Assembly (NCBI RefSeq): GCF_000739635.1
Contig: NZ_BATQ01000133.1
Location: 62,001 to 126,000, forward strand
Direction: 5' to 3'
Source: Verrucomicrobium sp. BvORR034
GTDB lineage: Bacteria; Verrucomicrobiota; Verrucomicrobiia; Verrucomicrobiales; Verrucomicrobiaceae
Length of the DNA: 64,000 nucleotides
The notes below the pieces were generated by a model that saw only the letters and a list, made by a program, of their open reading frames with translations, searched no databases and was not told where the DNA came from. Below are positions 20,781 through 57,034 of the stretch, in pieces (the stretch's first letter is position 1; each line of letters begins with the position of its first letter). The position numbers were made by a program, and so were the translations under genes.

Positions 20781-21332
20781 ATGCCCTACGCGATTGAGAT
20801 GTTCTTTGATTCGGCCACCGACGTTCGAATTCGCCGTCTTTGAGAAAACCTCGCCTTGGCGGGAGCCAGCTTCATGCGGGATGGCGGGGCCAGACCTCAT
20901 GTGTCACTCGCAGTATGCGATACTCTTGATGTATTGGGTGCCCGGGATTTGATTGATGGATTCGCCAGAAAGATTGCTCCCATCCCAGTAACTCTCGCAT
21001 CACTTGGAGTCTTCCCCTCTGCATCACCAGTCATGTTTTTGGCTCCAAAGGTGACCGTCGAACTCTTGCAGATTCATTCAGAGTTTTTCACTGCCTTTGA
21101 TTCATTGGGGCATGGCCGTTGGTCCCACTATTCCCCTCTGCATTGGATTCCTCATTGCACTGTCGCCATGCACATTGATGCACAGCAGCTTTCAGGCCTT
21201 GGCTCTATTTGCCTCGCAGCGGACTTGCCCATTTCCGGCACCCTCACCGAGATTGGACTGGTTGAGTTTAGCCCCGTCCGACACCTCCATTCGGCCCCTT
21301 TTACTCCAAACTCCGACAAATGTCTCACTTAA
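20781..21332 (+). pseudogene. 2'-5' RNA ligase-like gene with an in-frame TGA
   Basis: From ATG 20781 the frame reads MPYAIEMFFDSATDVRIRRL, hits TGA at 20841-20843, and continues in the same frame through ENLALAGASFMRDGGARPHV to a TAA at 21330. Conserved pieces on both sides are needed for the fold: the N-terminal strand and the first H-x-S motif (RPHVSLAVCD), then the second, here HCTVAMHI. In relatives I recall Trp at the stop position, so a TGG to TGA change is the simplest reading. Restart at TTG 20856 or at the ATG in ASFMRDG would lose strand 1. Confidence 0.72.
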
Positions 21333-21358
21333 ATCTTGCCAACTCTTACATTTGTCGG
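21313..21358. promoter_or_regulatory. Probable BlaI-type operator dyad
   Basis: CCGACAAATGT (21313-21323) and its perfect inverse ACATTTGTCGG (21348-21358) sit directly upstream of the blaI-like gene, 35 bp centre to centre. The ACAAATGT core matches the TACA-x2-TGTA type of BlaI/MecI operators. The left half lies within the tail of the RNA-ligase-like pseudogene. Autoregulation of the blaI-M56 pair is inferred. Confidence 0.7.
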
Positions 21359-21371
21359 CAAGAATCGCCGC

Positions 21372-21785
21372 ATGTCCAAAAAATCGGCACCTGCAGCGCT
21401 CTCCTCCTCAGAGCAGGCCATCATGGACCAGCTCTGGCGGCTGGCTCCAACCTCGCTCAATGATCTGCTTGAAGCCGTGAATGCGGACCGGCAGGAGCCC
21501 ATCTCCCGGGCCACCTTGCAGACGCAACTCACCCGCCTGGAGACCAAGGGCTGGGTGAAGCGCGACGATTCCACCAGGGCGCACATTTATGTGCCCGCCG
21601 TGGCCGAATCCCACGGTCGCCGCAGCGTTTTGGCCGCACTTAAGGAGCGCTTCTTTGGTGGCAGCAGCCTGGCCTTGGTGCGGTGCCTGGTGGAAAACGG
21701 GGAAATCTCGGAAAAGGAACTGACTGAGCTCAAAGAGATGGTGGCCCAAGCCAAAAAGCCAACTGGAAAGGACACCCGCCCATGA
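21372..21785 (+). CDS. BlaI/MecI family transcriptional repressor
   Basis: This 137-aa winged-helix protein opens with the family pattern ALSSSEQAIMDQLWRLAPTS. The recognition-helix region reads ISRATLQTQLTRLETKGWV, with the wing DDSTRAHIYVPAV, and a C-terminal dimerisation part containing SALVRCLVENGEISEKEL-like sequence. In BlaI/MecI the repressor is cleaved after its M56 partner is activated. Its stop overlaps the M56 start as ATGA, so the two are translationally coupled. The first ATG (21372) is used. Confidence 0.92.
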   Translation: MSKKSAPAALSSSEQAIMDQLWRLAPTSLNDLLEAVNADRQEPISRATLQTQLTRLETKGWVKRDDSTRAHIYVPAVAESHGRRSVLAALKERFFGGSSLALVRCLVENGEISEKELTELKEMVAQAKKPTGKDTRP

Positions 21786-24310
21786 AGACGATACTTTGGT
21801 GGAATCTGGCCCTCCATCTGCTCGCCTTCACGGCCATGGGCTGGGTACTCGTGCGGTGGTTTCTTCGCGACGCCCGGTTTCGCGCATGGGCTGTCTTGGC
21901 GTCCATCAGTCTGGGGATGGTTTCGCCCTGGATTGGGCCACTGCTTCCCATTGTCGTGCCCAATCCTGAATCGACGGCTGCTCATTCATCTGCCGAATCT
22001 CCGCAGGGAACGTGGAAGATTCAGGTAACAACTACCTCGGCTGCAGGTCCATTCTCCACCCCTCCCCTGCTACCGACCGCTTCGACCCCAAGTAGCTGGA
22101 CTCTGGCGGAAGGGATGAATCTCTTAAGCATGCTCTGGCTGACCGGAGCGGTATTGGGCTTGGCCCGTCACCTGATGAGTACCCTGCGAGCCCTCTTGTG
22201 GCAAAGACGGCTTCGGCGGCCTGATGCCGCCGAGTGGGAAACCTTCCCCCGAGAAGCGAACAGGTTCCCGATTCGACTTTTCCAGGGCAAAGGCAGCCCC
22301 TGCGTCGCGGGATGGTGGCATCCCGTCATCGCCATTCCGGAAGAGTCCATGCGCGACTGGAGCGCCGCTCAGTGGAACTGGGTGCTGCGGCACGAGGAGC
22401 AACACCGCATGGGAGGCGACACGATGGTGGCATCCATCCTTGGACTGCTACGGGCCATCTTCTGGTGGAACCCTTTCCTTCATGCTCTCGCTTTGCAATG
22501 GGCGCAGGCAAGGGAAGAAATCTGTGATCATGCAGCCCTTCAATCCCCTGGCGAAGCGAGCGACTATGCAGACCTGCTTCTGACGGTGGCGGCACAATCC
22601 ATTGCGGCGCCTCTTCCCATGGCATCATCCGCCATGGCAACTTCCCGCCCAGCACGGCACCTGCGCGCCAGGATCCACGCCTTGCTCAAGGGGCACCCGG
22701 TCTCAGTACGCACCAGCCGCTGGTTCATGGGTGGCTATTCCCTGGTGGCGGCTGGGCTGATGGTACTGCTGGCCCAGATAGGTTTTGCGGAACCTCTTTC
22801 GCAAGGAAAAACAGCCGAGGCGACACCGAAGTCAACAACCCCAAAAGATGCAAAATCTGGAGACGCCAAACTTCAGATTCGCACCTACCGGGTACGGCCT
22901 GATTTCATGACCGCCAGAGAGGACTTCAAAGGCAAGACGGCTAAAGAGATCCTCGAGTTTCTTGGCATTTCCTTCCCAGAAGGAGGCAGCGCCGTCTTCA
23001 TTCCGAAGTCCTCAATGCTTATCGTTAAGTCCACGACCGCAGAGTTGGATCACGTGGACCGGCTGCTCGATCAACTCTCCGCCCACGCCCCCCTCCAAGT
23101 GTTGCTGGAAGCCCGTTGGATTGAATTGCTCGCCCTACCCGAAGAAGGAGGCCCAGCCAGCACCGCCCTGGCGACGCTTCAAGAAAAACGCACAGCGAAT
23201 GGTCGAGCCAATGAAGCGATTCTCAGCGATCCCGACTACCAGAACATCATACGACTCTTCAGCCAGCAGAAAGGCGTCAATCTGGTCAGTAGCCCTTCTG
23301 TCACCACACGAATGGGCCAGAAGGCAGTGGTCGAGATCATCCAAGAAGTGCGCCGTCCTGGTGAGGCAGGCAAGGGTCTCAACGACGACAATTTTGTCGG
23401 CATTCAGAATTCGTTCGAGCCTGTGCGCACTGCTGACGGAAAGAAAGTCCAAGTCAGTATGACTGCAAAATTGCGACGTCTTGCAGGCAGAAGCATCGCT
23501 GAGAGCAACGCCCTCATTAAAGATGGCATCCTCCCTGCCGGAGAACGGATACTTGCTTTCACAAACTCAGCTGATGTCTCGCTCACTGACGGAGAAACCG
23601 TCTGCATGGATATCGGTGCTGCCGAAGACCACCGCCGACTCCTCCTTTTTGTCACATCAAAAGTCGTGAAGCCGGTTGCCACATCCCTGGGGCCGGAAGC
23701 CTTGGAGCGTGAGTTGACTCGTCAGCCTACTCCCGAAATGGAGCGCTCTGCCACTTCTCGATCTCAACCCGTAGCCGTCTCAGGCCTCGCACTTAAGTTG
23801 AACCCTCCTGATGGCAACAGGAAGCTGCAGGATTTGTTCACCGCATTCTTGCCGCCGGTTCCCTCGGGAAGCGAGACTACAGCTCCCGTGGGAAGTGCCA
23901 TTCCCTCCCTAGTGTCATTGCAAACCACGACCGATGAGTTTGTTCTATTGGGGGTCATGACACCGGAGCAGAAGGATAGCCTGGTAAAGGCGATCAAACT
24001 TCATACGACGTCCGAGCAGATAACGGAGCAGAACGAAACCTCCAAAAAGGATCGTCCAGATCTGCCATTCAGTTTCAAGGGTGCCACGGCCTCGACCTTG
24101 GTTGTGAGTCCAGTTGTCGGCCCTGAGGATTTCGCCCTCGACATCAACATCAAGTCTGAGAACAGGAGCGGCTCCAAAGCAGTCACCACCAGTGTAACGA
24201 TTTGGGACAAACAGACCGTCGTGATGGGCCGTCTCATGCCAGACGCGGAAGTCGAAGCTCGGCCCCAGTTGAGCGAAGTCGTCCTGCTGTCATTCGAATC
24301 CGTGAAGTGA
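21782..24310 (+). CDS. BlaR1-like M56 metallopeptidase fused to secretin-like modules
   Basis: This is an 842-aa protein. Residues 1-330 are a BlaR1/MecR1-type membrane protease with helices near 5-26, 33-58, 112-131 and 316-333. The zinc motif is HEEQH at 204-208, with the third ligand in REEICDHAAL (Glu246). Downstream there is no penicillin-binding sensor. Residues 360-640 contain a secretin N-type domain (LIVKSTTAELDHVDRLLDQL) followed by a core-like segment (VNLVSSPSVTTRMGQKAVVE, VSLTDGETVCMDIG). The C-terminal part ends with a second core-like segment (TTSVTIWDKQTVVMGRLMPD). Coupled to the blaI-like gene by ATGA. What the extracytoplasmic part senses is unknown. Confidence 0.82.
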   Translation: MKTILWWNLALHLLAFTAMGWVLVRWFLRDARFRAWAVLASISLGMVSPWIGPLLPIVVPNPESTAAHSSAESPQGTWKIQVTTTSAAGPFSTPPLLPTASTPSSWTLAEGMNLLSMLWLTGAVLGLARHLMSTLRALLWQRRLRRPDAAEWETFPREANRFPIRLFQGKGSPCVAGWWHPVIAIPEESMRDWSAAQWNWVLRHEEQHRMGGDTMVASILGLLRAIFWWNPFLHALALQWAQAREEICDHAALQSPGEASDYADLLLTVAAQSIAAPLPMASSAMATSRPARHLRARIHALLKGHPVSVRTSRWFMGGYSLVAAGLMVLLAQIGFAEPLSQGKTAEATPKSTTPKDAKSGDAKLQIRTYRVRPDFMTAREDFKGKTAKEILEFLGISFPEGGSAVFIPKSSMLIVKSTTAELDHVDRLLDQLSAHAPLQVLLEARWIELLALPEEGGPASTALATLQEKRTANGRANEAILSDPDYQNIIRLFSQQKGVNLVSSPSVTTRMGQKAVVEIIQEVRRPGEAGKGLNDDNFVGIQNSFEPVRTADGKKVQVSMTAKLRRLAGRSIAESNALIKDGILPAGERILAFTNSADVSLTDGETVCMDIGAAEDHRRLLLFVTSKVVKPVATSLGPEALERELTRQPTPEMERSATSRSQPVAVSGLALKLNPPDGNRKLQDLFTAFLPPVPSGSETTAPVGSAIPSLVSLQTTTDEFVLLGVMTPEQKDSLVKAIKLHTTSEQITEQNETSKKDRPDLPFSFKGATASTLVVSPVVGPEDFALDINIKSENRSGSKAVTTSVTIWDKQTVVMGRLMPDAEVEARPQLSEVVLLSFESVK

Positions 24311-24433
24311 TGTCGCCCCCGACAAGCCAGACTGGGACGCGAAGATACTCCATCCGAGTCGGCGGATACTCAGTCAATCCGGCGTTGCCTGCATGGGGCA
24401 GACCTGCTTCGATTTTACAAAGCACCGCTCTGA

Positions 24434-25888
24434 ATGCCCCCCTTCACCGATCACCCCCTCCACCTCACCCGCCGCGCCCTCTTTGGGAAATCGGCCATGG
24501 GCTTGGGCGCGATGGCTCTGGGATCTCTGTTCACACGGGATGGATTGGCCCTGCCGCCGGACAAGCTGGCTCCGGCGTTGCCGCACTTTGCGCCGAAGGC
24601 AAAACGGATTATCTATCTGCTGCAGAATGGGGCTCCGTCTCATGTGGACCTCTTTGACTACAAGCCCAAGCTGAGGGAGTGGCACGGCAGACAGATTCCC
24701 GATGAGGTGGCGGGCGGAAAACGGTTCAGCACCATGACGGGCGGTCAGACGGACCGTCCCGTGTTAGGAGAGATCACCCAGTTCAGCCAGCATGGCCAGA
24801 GCGGGGCCTGGGTGAGTGATTTCCTCCCCCACACCGCCGGCATTGCAGATGACCTGTGCTTCATCAAGTCCATGCACACGGAGCCGGTGAATCACGCCCC
24901 GGCCATCACTTACTTTCTCACCGGCGGCGAGCAGGCCGGACGCCCCAGCATGGGCGCGTGGTTAAGCTACGGCCTGGGCAGTGATTCCAATGACCTCCCT
25001 TCCTTCGTGGTCATGACCTCCCGCGATAAGGAAGCATCCTGCGGGCAGATCTTCTATGACTTCTATTGGGGCAGTGGCTTCCTCCCTTCCAAGTATCAGG
25101 GGGTCAAGTTCCGTGGCAGCGGTGATCCGGTGCTCTATCTCAGCAACCCCGACGGCATGAGCCGCAGCGTGCGGCGCGGTGTCCTGGATGACTTGGCGCG
25201 ACTCAATGAAATCAAACTCCGGGAACAAGGCGATCCGGAGATCGCCACCCGCATTTCCCAGTATGAGATGGCATACCGCATGCAAGCCAGCGTGCCGGAG
25301 CTCACTGATTTCAGCAAGGAGCCACAGCACATCCTGGAGATGTACGGTCCCGATGTGCACCGCCAGGGCAGCTATGCCTACAACTGCCTGATGGCCCGTC
25401 GGCTTGCGGAGCGCGGCGTACGCTTCACCCAGATCATGCATGCCGGCTGGGACCAGCACCGCAATCTAAACAGCCAGCTCAAGATCCAATGCCAGGATAC
25501 CGATGCGCCGTCCGCCGCACTGGTCAAAGATCTCAAGCAGCGCGGCCTCCTCGATGACACGCTCGTGATCTGGGGTGGCGAGTTTGGTAGAACACCCTTT
25601 CTACAAGGCAAGATCGCCGACACCAAGCAATGGGGCCGGGATCATCATCCTTATGCCTTCACCCTCTGGATGGCGGGCGGTGGGATCAAACCGGGCATCA
25701 GCCACGGAGCTAGCGATGAGTTCGGATTCAACGCGGTGGAGGACAAGGTGCATGTGCACGACTTCCAGGCCACCCTCATGCATCTCATGGGGATTGATCA
25801 CGAGCGCTTCACCTTCCGGTTCCAAGGTCGGCAATTCCGGCTCACGGATGTGCACGGGCACGTGGTGAAGCAGGTGATTGGTGCTTAG
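24434..25888 (+). CDS. DUF1501 (sulfatase-like) Tat-exported protein
   Basis: This 484-aa protein has a twin-arginine leader (HLTRRALFGKSAMGLGAMAL) and the DUF1501 body: AKRIIYLLQNGAPSHVDLFD, EPVNHAPAITYFLTGG, WGGEFGRTPFLQ and GRDHHPYAFTLWMAGGGIK. DUF1501 proteins are alkaline-phosphatase-fold proteins abundant in Planctomycetes and Verrucomicrobia. They usually sit beside a DUF1549/DUF1553 cytochrome-type gene. No such partner lies on either side here. The substrate is unknown. Confidence 0.92.
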   Translation: MPPFTDHPLHLTRRALFGKSAMGLGAMALGSLFTRDGLALPPDKLAPALPHFAPKAKRIIYLLQNGAPSHVDLFDYKPKLREWHGRQIPDEVAGGKRFSTMTGGQTDRPVLGEITQFSQHGQSGAWVSDFLPHTAGIADDLCFIKSMHTEPVNHAPAITYFLTGGEQAGRPSMGAWLSYGLGSDSNDLPSFVVMTSRDKEASCGQIFYDFYWGSGFLPSKYQGVKFRGSGDPVLYLSNPDGMSRSVRRGVLDDLARLNEIKLREQGDPEIATRISQYEMAYRMQASVPELTDFSKEPQHILEMYGPDVHRQGSYAYNCLMARRLAERGVRFTQIMHAGWDQHRNLNSQLKIQCQDTDAPSAALVKDLKQRGLLDDTLVIWGGEFGRTPFLQGKIADTKQWGRDHHPYAFTLWMAGGGIKPGISHGASDEFGFNAVEDKVHVHDFQATLMHLMGIDHERFTFRFQGRQFRLTDVHGHVVKQVIGA

Positions 25889-54145: not shown

Positions 54146-57034
54146 ATGCTACCACGACCCATTATCCTCAAAGCACCTTCGCATCGCATGGTTGCGGTTT
54201 GCATACTGTCCATCCTCCTGAGCACTCTTTCAGGAATCGCTCAATCCTGGCCTTCCAAACCGTCCTTCGACGATAAGGAATCGTGGGACTTGGTAAGCAG
54301 CACCGAGCCGCAAGCTTACACCGATTCTCTGACGAGCATCCTCGACCAGGCCAATATCAAACACAAGCTTAGTGACAACATCGCAAAAATCGCCACAAAA
54401 CGGACCCCACGAGAAATCGCCAACGGAGCATTGAACCACGCGAGGAACACCGCCGAAAGCGCCATCGCAACGGCTATCCTTCAAGCCAAACATGCCGAAA
54501 CGGATGCAAAGATCGCGGAAGAGGTATATAAGCAAGCTCTGAAGGTGGCAGCCGAATTGAAGACAGCGGGGGCGCGACGCGATCAGGATGATGCTGCGGC
54601 CAAATATGCTGCCGCAAGGGAAGCCGCGAAACAGGCAAAACTCGACGAGGAAGGGCTAAAAAACGCCGCTGAATCGGCAGCGGTCGCCTCAGAGGCGAAT
54701 CTCGGGCAGATCTATCGGTTCCTGCTCTCTCTGGAGGGGGCTACGGATTACTTCGACCAGCAGATCGTGTACGTGACCACCTTGAAGGAAACCAAGACGA
54801 AACTGTTCGAGGCTGTCACCCCAGCCCAGTATGCGGATTTGAACAAGTTCCTCTCCGACCTCGACTTCACTCCGAAGCAGGGCACTTACGAGAATGGCAA
54901 TACACTCCAGGCGGCGCAGATGGCTGCCCGCCAGATCTCGCTGCGGTACAGCACCAGTCTGGGAGCGTTGCTCGTCGTCGGCCCGGCCCGTTTTGTCGAA
55001 GTGGTCACGGCCACTCTGGACGGACTGAAGCAGTCGAAGCCGGAGCCCAAGTTTGCAACCTATGGCGTAAGACGAGTGCACTGCCGCCATGCCCTAGTGA
55101 CCGACCGAAAACTGGGAGGAGATTTGTATGTAAGCGAGTTGGTGGTTCCGGGCGTCTTCACCCTTTTGAAAGGCGTTCTGGGTGAGACCAGCCCGAACGT
55201 GAGCTTCGCCAATAGCCCACCAGCGCTGATCACGGGAGGAAGGGACATTTCTGGTGCCGAAACGGTGGAGGCCGTGAGCAAAGGAGCCGAAGCTATTCAG
55301 AAGGAGACCGCCGCTGCAGAGCAAACATCGCAGCAGTCTAATCCGGGCATGATCACCATCCTCCCGGCAGAACCGATCGCTACAACTCGCACTGAGACGA
55401 CAGCGGCGGGATTGCCACTGATCATTCCCGCAGAGCAATCCAAGGCGAATGCATTCATTGAGCGGATTGGTGCTCGACAGCTCAACAAACTCTTCAACAG
55501 CCCTGCGCTTGACAGTGCGACTCGGCTGGAGCCATCGGGAGTTCCCTATAGTACCCCTGAATCTAGCAATTCCGACAATTTCATGCCCCAAGCTCCGCCT
55601 GCATCTGGAGCCGAGCCAGATCGGACCCGGAAACACCCACCTCCGCAAGCCATCCCTCGTCCGCTGCCAACCTCCGGCATGGACGCAATCTTCGACAACA
55701 TTGAAGATGAACTCTCCAAGGGAGTCGCCCACCAAGAAATGGCGGGAACAGATCCAAACTTGCTCCTGCCTCTGGTTCGATGGAACACAGATGGCCATCC
55801 ACCTGTCGCCCTCGGCCCTACTCCCGGCGGCCATTATTCAGAGCTCGGCAAAACTTTCGATGTCCGTGGCACCGGAGTGTCGCGAGCCACACGAACTTCC
55901 GGCGGCGAAGTAGTCGCCGAGAACCGGGCATCTATTTTTGCGGCCGACCCTCGCACCAACTCGATTCACATCATGGGTCCGATCGAGATGTTGGATTTCT
56001 ATGAGGATCTCGTACGCTCCCTTGACCTTCCGCAGATGCTCGTAGAGATATCAGCCGCAATCGTCGACGTTGATTCTTCCAACACTTATGAGTGGAACAC
56101 TCAACTGGCAGGCAGTGTGACGGGAGAGATACAGGACAAGAAAGCCACACTGGGCGGTGGGTTCGACTCGAAAAACCTGTTCAAAGACCTCACGGATGCG
56201 GCAGGACCAGCGATCAAATCCGGACTGGTGGATGGCACCGGTCTGAATGTGGCCGGGCTGTTGGTAGGCGAGAGTTATCAAGTCTTAGGCAAATTTCGGG
56301 CACTAGAAAGTGAGGGGCAGGCGAGGTTTATCTCACGCCCCAACGTCATGACCTTGGACAATGTGATGGCCTCCCTTACGGATACCACGACCTTCTTCGT
56401 CCCGGTCCAGGCCAGGGAGGATGCGAAGCTCTACCAGGTGCGGGCCCAGACCCGCATCAAGGTGCATCCTCACATTGTCTTCGAGGAGTCCCCAACCGTC
56501 GATCATCACGAACGCGCGAGCAGAGTGCGGCTGCTGATCGACATTGAAGACGGCTCCACCAATGATGAAACCACCACCTCCAGCAGCACGATTGTGGATG
56601 GAAACGGCACCACCGTCTCCCAGGTCATTCCTTCGCTCGCAACCAGCCGGATCAGCACTCAGGCGGAGGTCTTTGAAGGGCAGAGCCTTCTCATCGGGGG
56701 GCGCTACCGCAATGAACAGGTCAAGAACCAAGGGCATGTGCCCATCATTGGAAAGATCCCGGTAATCGGGCTGGCCTTCCGGGGAAAAGAAGTTACGCAC
56801 CGCCGCATGCAACGGCTCTTTATCATCACCCCCCGCATTGTCGACCCAACCGTGCCGAGTGGCAGCTCCGGCAGAAGGATTGAGACCGTGATGAAACAGT
56901 GGGCCGATTCGGAGAAGGAGAAAACAGTGCCTACGCGAACCCCGGTGACGACGCTGCCCCAGGAGAAAAATAGTTGGTGGTTTAATAGGAAGAAGAGCGA
57001 GAAGAACCCCGCCAGAGTCAAGGCCCCCAAGTGA
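54146..57034 (+). CDS. Type III secretion (SctC/YscC)-like outer-membrane secretin
   Basis: This 962-aa protein has a signal peptide (cleaved after about LSGIAQS), an Ala/Lys-rich coiled coil (roughly residues 85-185) and N-type ring domains (SLGALLVVGPARFVEVVTAT; TNSIHIMGPIEMLDFYEDLV). The secretin core follows. Features closest to SctC are the VEISAAIVDVDSSNTYEW strand, FISRPNVMTLDNVMASLTD, FFVPVQAREDAKLYQV, LLIDIEDGS, QAEVFEGQSLLIGGRY and HVPIIGKIPVIGLAFRG. A Ser/Pro-rich linker divides N and core parts. No other secretion gene is in the window, only a lipoprotein downstream. ATG 54188 is an alternative start. Confidence 0.85.
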   Translation: MLPRPIILKAPSHRMVAVCILSILLSTLSGIAQSWPSKPSFDDKESWDLVSSTEPQAYTDSLTSILDQANIKHKLSDNIAKIATKRTPREIANGALNHARNTAESAIATAILQAKHAETDAKIAEEVYKQALKVAAELKTAGARRDQDDAAAKYAAAREAAKQAKLDEEGLKNAAESAAVASEANLGQIYRFLLSLEGATDYFDQQIVYVTTLKETKTKLFEAVTPAQYADLNKFLSDLDFTPKQGTYENGNTLQAAQMAARQISLRYSTSLGALLVVGPARFVEVVTATLDGLKQSKPEPKFATYGVRRVHCRHALVTDRKLGGDLYVSELVVPGVFTLLKGVLGETSPNVSFANSPPALITGGRDISGAETVEAVSKGAEAIQKETAAAEQTSQQSNPGMITILPAEPIATTRTETTAAGLPLIIPAEQSKANAFIERIGARQLNKLFNSPALDSATRLEPSGVPYSTPESSNSDNFMPQAPPASGAEPDRTRKHPPPQAIPRPLPTSGMDAIFDNIEDELSKGVAHQEMAGTDPNLLLPLVRWNTDGHPPVALGPTPGGHYSELGKTFDVRGTGVSRATRTSGGEVVAENRASIFAADPRTNSIHIMGPIEMLDFYEDLVRSLDLPQMLVEISAAIVDVDSSNTYEWNTQLAGSVTGEIQDKKATLGGGFDSKNLFKDLTDAAGPAIKSGLVDGTGLNVAGLLVGESYQVLGKFRALESEGQARFISRPNVMTLDNVMASLTDTTTFFVPVQAREDAKLYQVRAQTRIKVHPHIVFEESPTVDHHERASRVRLLIDIEDGSTNDETTTSSSTIVDGNGTTVSQVIPSLATSRISTQAEVFEGQSLLIGGRYRNEQVKNQGHVPIIGKIPVIGLAFRGKEVTHRRMQRLFIITPRIVDPTVPSGSSGRRIETVMKQWADSEKEKTVPTRTPVTTLPQEKNSWWFNRKKSEKNPARVKAPK

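Follow-up and report, generated by a model that had tools for sequence, protein, structure and literature searches.

Paired palindromic operators are found in the BlaR1/MecR1-BlaI/MecI systems, and they are also found in the operon that we describe here, which lies in a window of 64,000 nucleotides (the whole stretch of DNA analysed) on contig NZ_BATQ01000133.1 of Verrucomicrobium sp. BvORR034, a genome of 8.58 Mb, and which consists of a blaI-type gene followed by a gene for an M56 metalloprotease with a secretin-related C-terminal half. As far as those systems are described with the BlaR1 structure 8exs (PMC9834060), the likeness extends to the M56 domain with its zinc-protease motifs HEXXH and ExxxD, whose roles we take from that paper, to the predicted helical membrane anchor and to the BlaI-type repressor encoded in the same operon. 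The two part company at the sensor, which is a penicillin-binding domain in BlaR1/MecR1 and secretin-derived here, and in the surroundings of the operators, because no beta-lactamase or PBP2a gene adjoins them in this locus and the operon appears to control itself. The sensor half resembles the Amuc_1098/PilQ-type type IV pilus secretins of Verrucomicrobiota (NF042912) in having an N1 domain and core sequence, but it differs from them in being fused after an inner-membrane protease, in lacking three stretches and in having its core duplicated. In A. muciniphila no outer membrane protein is more abundant than a pilus secretin of this type, Amuc_1098/PilQ, according to PMC4960237. A possible task, namely the detection of misplaced secretins at the inner membrane, is shared with the Psp response to mislocalised secretins as presented in PMC5596341, with which the locus has no parts in common.

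The identity of the system's parts is close to certain. The repressor gene (137 codons, 21372..21785, forward strand like the fusion gene and its domains) was recognised by Pfam and NCBIfam profiles (Penicillinase_R, 1.1e-22) and by its match to the S. aureus BlaI structure 1sd4 (8.4e-9), and it precedes the M56 protease-secretin fusion gene (842 amino acids, 21782..24310; profile searches, alignment and predicted fold), with which it overlaps by 4 nucleotides. Since the second operator falls between the two possible start codons, the TTG at 21336 and the ATG at 21372, the ATG is the more likely start of blaI. Residues 1-335 of the fusion (21782..22786) form the predicted BlaR1-type membrane and metalloprotease domain, on the evidence of PF05569 (2e-25), of a profile of 23 relatives that matches BlaR1 8exs at positions 49-328 (1.3e-9), and of the predicted fold, which superposes on 8exs over residues 2-295 (Z 17.6, rmsd 4.5, 247 aligned). 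The last predicted helix of this domain spans residues 313-332. Alignment places the zinc motif HEEQH at residues 204-208 (22391..22405) and the ExxxD motif at E245 and D249 (22514-22528), and the five residues H204, E205, H208, E245 and D249 are invariant across 15 aligned rows. The coupling of an HEEQH-bearing M56 protease to an adjoining BlaI-type repressor, proposed in a preliminary description of this DNA, thus stands. By its M56 domain, its fold and, judged by sequence, its same-operon BlaI and paired palindromic operators, the protein is a BlaR1-type receptor; it is not BlaR1/MecR1 in the strict sense, which requires a penicillin-binding sensor, and its NF000326 score of 37.8 bits is far under the cut-off of 400. 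Scans against Pfam and NCBIfam found no penicillin-binding domain in it, secretin-related sequence standing there instead. The nearest named relative, 81% identical, is from Verrucomicrobium sp. BvORR106.

Profiles and model agree in reading residues 362-842 as an N1-like domain with two shortened secretin cores in tandem behind it, Amuc_1098/PilQ being the closest secretin. Residues 331-842 matched NF042912 (the Amuc_1098 type IV pilus outer membrane protein) at 9.2e-30, with 103.3 bits against 99.6 for the whole protein; the model's whole-protein criterion exceeds 750 bits, and the homology is hence partial only. Against the Pfam Secretin family (PF00263) the same residues gave 1.9e-5, under the family cut-off (24.8 versus 27.5 bits), and the ortholog L086 exceeded it with 32.2 bits. 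On the profile and fold matches together, homology to the secretin N-domain and core, as in members of PF00263, is present. The profile of 23 relatives matched secretins at about positions 387-568, with GspD 6hcg best (1.3e-5) and BfpB, PilQ, MxiD and InvG among the others, and it matched GspD and PilQ chains again within positions 732-800. Identity to the source genome's own secretins reaches 51% across 53 residues. The N1-like domain (about residues 362-435, 22865..23086) contains an NF042912 stretch at residues 384-448 and matches the fold of the XcpQ N-domain 5ngi (Z 6.9, rmsd 2.1, 60 aligned), a Z below 8 being weak by itself. Core 1 (residues 436-632, 23087..23677) was found by profile and by a fold match of residues 437-632 to the RcpA core 8odn (Z 10.5, rmsd 4.3, 128 aligned), and core 2 (residues 660-842, 23759..24307) by profile matches and hhalign; we regard the core as duplicated because the two core profiles align with each other at E 8.6e-10 (probability 96.5).

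The AlphaFold model on which these folds rest was built from 23 sequences (mean pLDDT 72.8, pTM 0.46), and it matched GspD 5wq9 with Z 11.5 (rmsd 9.1, 183 aligned). When Foldseek compared it with the PDB, the top 26 matches were all BlaR1 or secretin-complex chains, with low whole-chain TM-scores, as expected where domains are loosely placed. A confident fold foreign to secretins, which would have spoken against the preliminary description, did not appear in the C-terminal half. The two secretin-like peptides on which that description was based are real, the first lying in the N1-like domain and the second at the C-terminal end of core 2, and its statement that secretin N-domain and core pieces replace the beta-lactam sensor is borne out by profile and fold matches together.

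Upstream of the operon, inverted-repeat and pattern searches identified two BlaI-type palindromes, the distal operator O1 (CGACAAATGTCT, 21314..21325) and operator O2 (TTACATTTGTCG, 21346..21357), the latter between the predicted -35 and -10 elements of a promoter-like site (TTGCCA-18-AAGAAT, 21336..21365, forward strand) recognised by consensus match only (one found versus 0.1 per shuffle). The position of O2 in the promoter spacer is consistent with repression by occlusion. A perfect operator dyad had been claimed for this region, and the repeat is indeed exact (11/11, with 24 nucleotides between the arms); its unit is a pair of operators and not one dyad, as the arms are separate palindromes (ACAAATGT at 21316-21323 and ACATTTGT at 21348-21355) and in some orthologs both copies have the same orientation. 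A pair of CGACAnnTGTCG-like operators (ACAnnTGT), searched for with spacings of 28-36 bp, was present in all 18 family members examined (32 bp apart in 16 and 33 bp in two) and never appeared when each upstream region was shuffled 200 times. In the source genome the pattern GACAnnTGT N20-27 ACAnnTGT, which would miss pairs whose two outer sides both read TACA, occurs once, at the blaI-M56 locus. Single CGACAnnTGTCG sites look like chance because five were found versus four for a control pattern, and a regulon outside the operon was rejected on these two grounds. Autoregulation through the operators, anticipated in the preliminary description, is likely. Because the pair, searched by pattern, is unique in the genome, because the neighbouring genes vary, and because the pair is kept at a locus of Brevifollis gellanilyticus that has no blaI, the gene that the operators accompany across genomes is, as far as sequence goes, the M56-secretin gene itself.

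Four further observations concern operators of this kind. In Brevifollis gellanilyticus the M56-secretin gene without a blaI match in its locus (L088:4175-6616) has the pair 90 and 122 bp before it, and a second locus of the same species (L089:4736-5958) holds blaI with an interrupted M56 gene, so that BlaI may act there in trans. The relative G015 likewise has a further operator pair in front of a blaI-M56 operon. Two tandem M56-secretin genes follow one blaI at L093:5004-10760 (contig C10 of genome G014), with a different operator pair (CTACAAnTGTAG). Lastly, a lone exact CGACAAATGTCG site in the source genome (G000 C108:8090, around position 1503 of locus L102) lies upstream of a gene whose small product looks secreted and matches no Pfam family.

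Alignment with the genome's own Amuc_1098-type secretins indicated that the fusion retains the N1 domain together with the framework of the core and lacks three stretches, one before GVFTDPQFQ, one after EVxREF, and the VPxLGDIPxxGRLF element. The strict pattern VPxLGxIPxxGxxF occurs in 8 of 12 own secretins, in none of 27 ortholog rows and in none of nine other M56-secretins, and a loose form of it in 10 of 12, 0 of 27 and 3 of 9, respectively; the scan skipped the first 330 residues of each row, so that the C-terminal half of the partial rows L153 and L158 was covered incompletely, and the row L154 has no C-terminal half. The outer-membrane contact element of PF00263 members, an amphipathic helical loop, is hence absent from the fusion under both forms of the pattern. 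This loop is reported in PMC6532946 for every secretin whose structure was known by 2019, and it is thought there to initiate contact with the outer membrane. Because this element is absent, the secretin half is probably a periplasmic module anchored in the inner membrane, a sensor or a bait, rather than an outer-membrane pore.

What the computation shows directly is the order of the genes, the fold as predicted, the catalytic motif, the homology to secretins, the duplicated core, the missing outer-membrane element and the conserved operators. The interpretation that we favour, with a probability of about 0.42, is that of an autoregulated BlaI-M56 system whose sensor was derived from the C-terminal part (N1 and core) of an Amuc_1098/PilQ-type secretin, with its core duplicated, and which senses secretin misassembly. 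In such a system blaI-M56 would be kept repressed by BlaI dimers bound to both operators, whose spacing is 32 bp and of which the proximal one falls within the promoter spacer, while the M56 protein would stay in the inner membrane with its secretin mimic in the periplasm. The mimic would pair with unassembled or mislocalised PilQ-type secretin subunits, upon which the cytoplasmic zinc protease would cleave BlaI and the operon would be derepressed. The topology, the binding and cleavage of BlaI, the ligand and the role of the extra M56 protein are what we infer in this scheme, and the sensing of secretin assembly or envelope state is put forward as a hypothesis. To our knowledge no secretin-stress sensor has been described for Verrucomicrobiota. 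PspC (PF04024) was found in none of 19 relatives searched, which may leave room for another such sensor and is no proof of one. Searching open-licence full texts by title and start of abstract, we found no M56 or BlaR1 protein with secretin domains, and as far as that search goes the secretin-derived sensor is new on a BlaR1-type logic that is known. If the reading is true, the BlaR1 pathway, known for antibiotic sensing, would extend to watching over the pilus or secretion machinery of the cell itself, and the idea can be tested directly with the two genes, their operators and the orthologs.

Several observations weigh against this interpretation. On the structural side, the second core is modelled patchily (pLDDT 24-83 per block of ten residues) and was not reported separately by VIA-align, which is no proof of a different fold; the superpositions of the whole model have high rmsd values; a designed beta protein also matches core 1 (Z 7.3); the ortholog L092 has no Pfam Secretin match; and the loose form of the contact-element pattern matches the three M56-secretins C127, G014a and G014b, the match in C127 falling in another loop when aligned with the own secretins. 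On the regulatory side, the operator pair, searched by pattern, marks no other gene in the source genome, where the same search gave no convincing BlaI target outside the operon. In the genomic context, the co-occurrence with secretin genes that the preliminary description had proposed to look for did not emerge next to the system: at the loci examined no pilus or secretin gene adjoins the blaI-M56 operon, and two genomes of genus g12 (G043 and G047) gave a secretin-only match but lacked any M56 at 1e-10, so that the receptor is not needed for a secretin. None of the seven g12 genomes sampled has an M56 match at that threshold. The counts of secretins and M56-secretins scored up to three candidates per genome and are lower bounds. 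Finally, a secretin core was present in one of the 10 M56 proteins scanned in a sample from outside the source genome (see below).

A competing explanation which we consider rather unlikely, although more probable than the other rivals, is that the secretin part is a reused scaffold that serves receptor oligomerisation or binds another envelope ligand (a peptidoglycan fragment, a glycan or a pilin) and reports nothing on secretins. The missing linkage to secretin genes would agree with it, as would the divergence of the family, whose proteins vary in length and are mostly 24-37% identical to the fusion over the whole protein, and the relatives L216-L218, which match NF042912 only near core positions 570-618 and have no N1 (E 0.025, 6.7e-6 and 4.6e-7). 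It is opposed by the occurrence of two non-overlapping segments from one secretin family, N0-type and N1-core, on different M56 proteins, which suggests that the secretin itself is the common theme. In the source genome all nine M56 proteins were scanned, and four carry Amuc_1098-related segments: besides the fusion, those on C16 and C127 have the NF042912 core region (8.7e-18 and 1.2e-51) and the one on C200 has an N0-type segment (3.5e-6). N0-type segments also occur in the M56 relatives L244, L245, L246, L249 and L255 (NF042912, 5.2e-22 to 2.3e-44), which were chosen by eye from 13 loci, so that no frequency follows. The secretin-derived segments lie on separate branches of the M56 tree, in which the M56-secretin family with L216-L219 is split from C16 and C127 with support 99/99; in this tree five of the 18 inner branches have weak support and the branch leading to C127 is long.

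The N0 segment of known secretins contacts inner-membrane partners. The N0-type proteins, including the one on C200, consequently favour a further explanation, a doubtful one in our judgement, in which the sensor detects an assembly partner of the periplasmic domains of secretins (pilotin-like, PilP/GspC-like or a peptidoglycan-binding protein) and the free partner is the signal; the M56-secretin family nevertheless carries N1 and core and not N0. It is improbable that the C-terminal half is decaying and non-functional and that the protease acts without a sensor. Secretin elements have been lost, and L089, L095, L096 and L081 are interrupted or split, although these come from draft assemblies; in most members, whose whole-protein identity is about 30%, both cores have, however, remained open, and positions such as G604, T606 and T812 of the C-terminal half are near-invariant. 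That the protein still senses beta-lactams, or uses a separate penicillin-binding partner, is very improbable despite the match of its N-terminal half to the NCBIfam BlaR1 model (7.6e-10), as no penicillin-binding domain was found in it and the source genome has another M56 protein with a PBP2-like transpeptidase.

That other protein (C116, L040:4100-6991, 964 amino acids) is BlaI-linked and its PBP2-like transpeptidase comes with a dimerisation domain. The M56 protein on C191 (L039:5489-7345) carries an ExbD/TolR domain at its C-terminus and is preceded by a BlaI-type gene, those on C66 and C143 have carboxypeptidase-regulatory-like domains, and the one on C17 has no recognised extra domain. 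Very long M56 proteins (1024-1446 amino acids) with carboxypeptidase-regulatory-like domains recur in the phylum (L041, L043, L275, L283 and L287). The sample comprised 59 genomes with 14 M56 matches outside the source genome, 10 of which were scanned against NCBIfam at 1e-3 and eight against Pfam (six of the same ten together with L286 and L287), L284 and L285 being scanned with neither library. Among the 10, one has a secretin core (L274, 7.8e-9, its Pfam Secretin match being under the cut-off), one (L278:753-2990, contig C387 of G060) has a C-terminal SecD P1 head (9.2e-21) with a BlaI-type gene upstream, and eight have neither. With a secretin core in one of the 10, secretin sensors on M56 proteins are frequent near the source family and not throughout the phylum. 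Because secretin segments, PBP2-like, ExbD/TolR and SecD-head domains all occur on M56 proteins, a broader and more speculative view, to which we give limited credence, is that the M56-BlaI systems of Verrucomicrobiota include receptors that mimic a component, each displaying a part of an envelope machine as bait to report the state of that machine, with BlaR1 as the known case; the putative baits would be PilQ secretin N0 or N1-core, PBP2, ExbD/TolR and the SecD head.

Whole-protein matches to the fusion at E 1e-45 or better were found in 17 of 36 genomes of the source family Verrucomicrobiaceae, source included, and in none of 21 genomes that belong to the same order but to other families, where the best value was 2.2e-20; G004, G014 and the non-family genome G053 also gave weaker matches that extend into the N1 region, and these were not counted as members. 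The blaI gene lies upstream in 17 of the 18 family members. The neighbouring genes (DUF1501, O-methyltransferase, HhH glycosylase and CtaA-type) differ between genera and were for that reason rejected as BlaI targets. Co-transcription with the DUF1501 gene is possible in the source genus, since a search of 24250-24520 gave no terminator-like site. The window also contains, at a distance of about 30 kb from the system, an open reading frame of 962 amino acids (54146-57034) with a full-length secretin domain match (PF00263, 2.6e-31).

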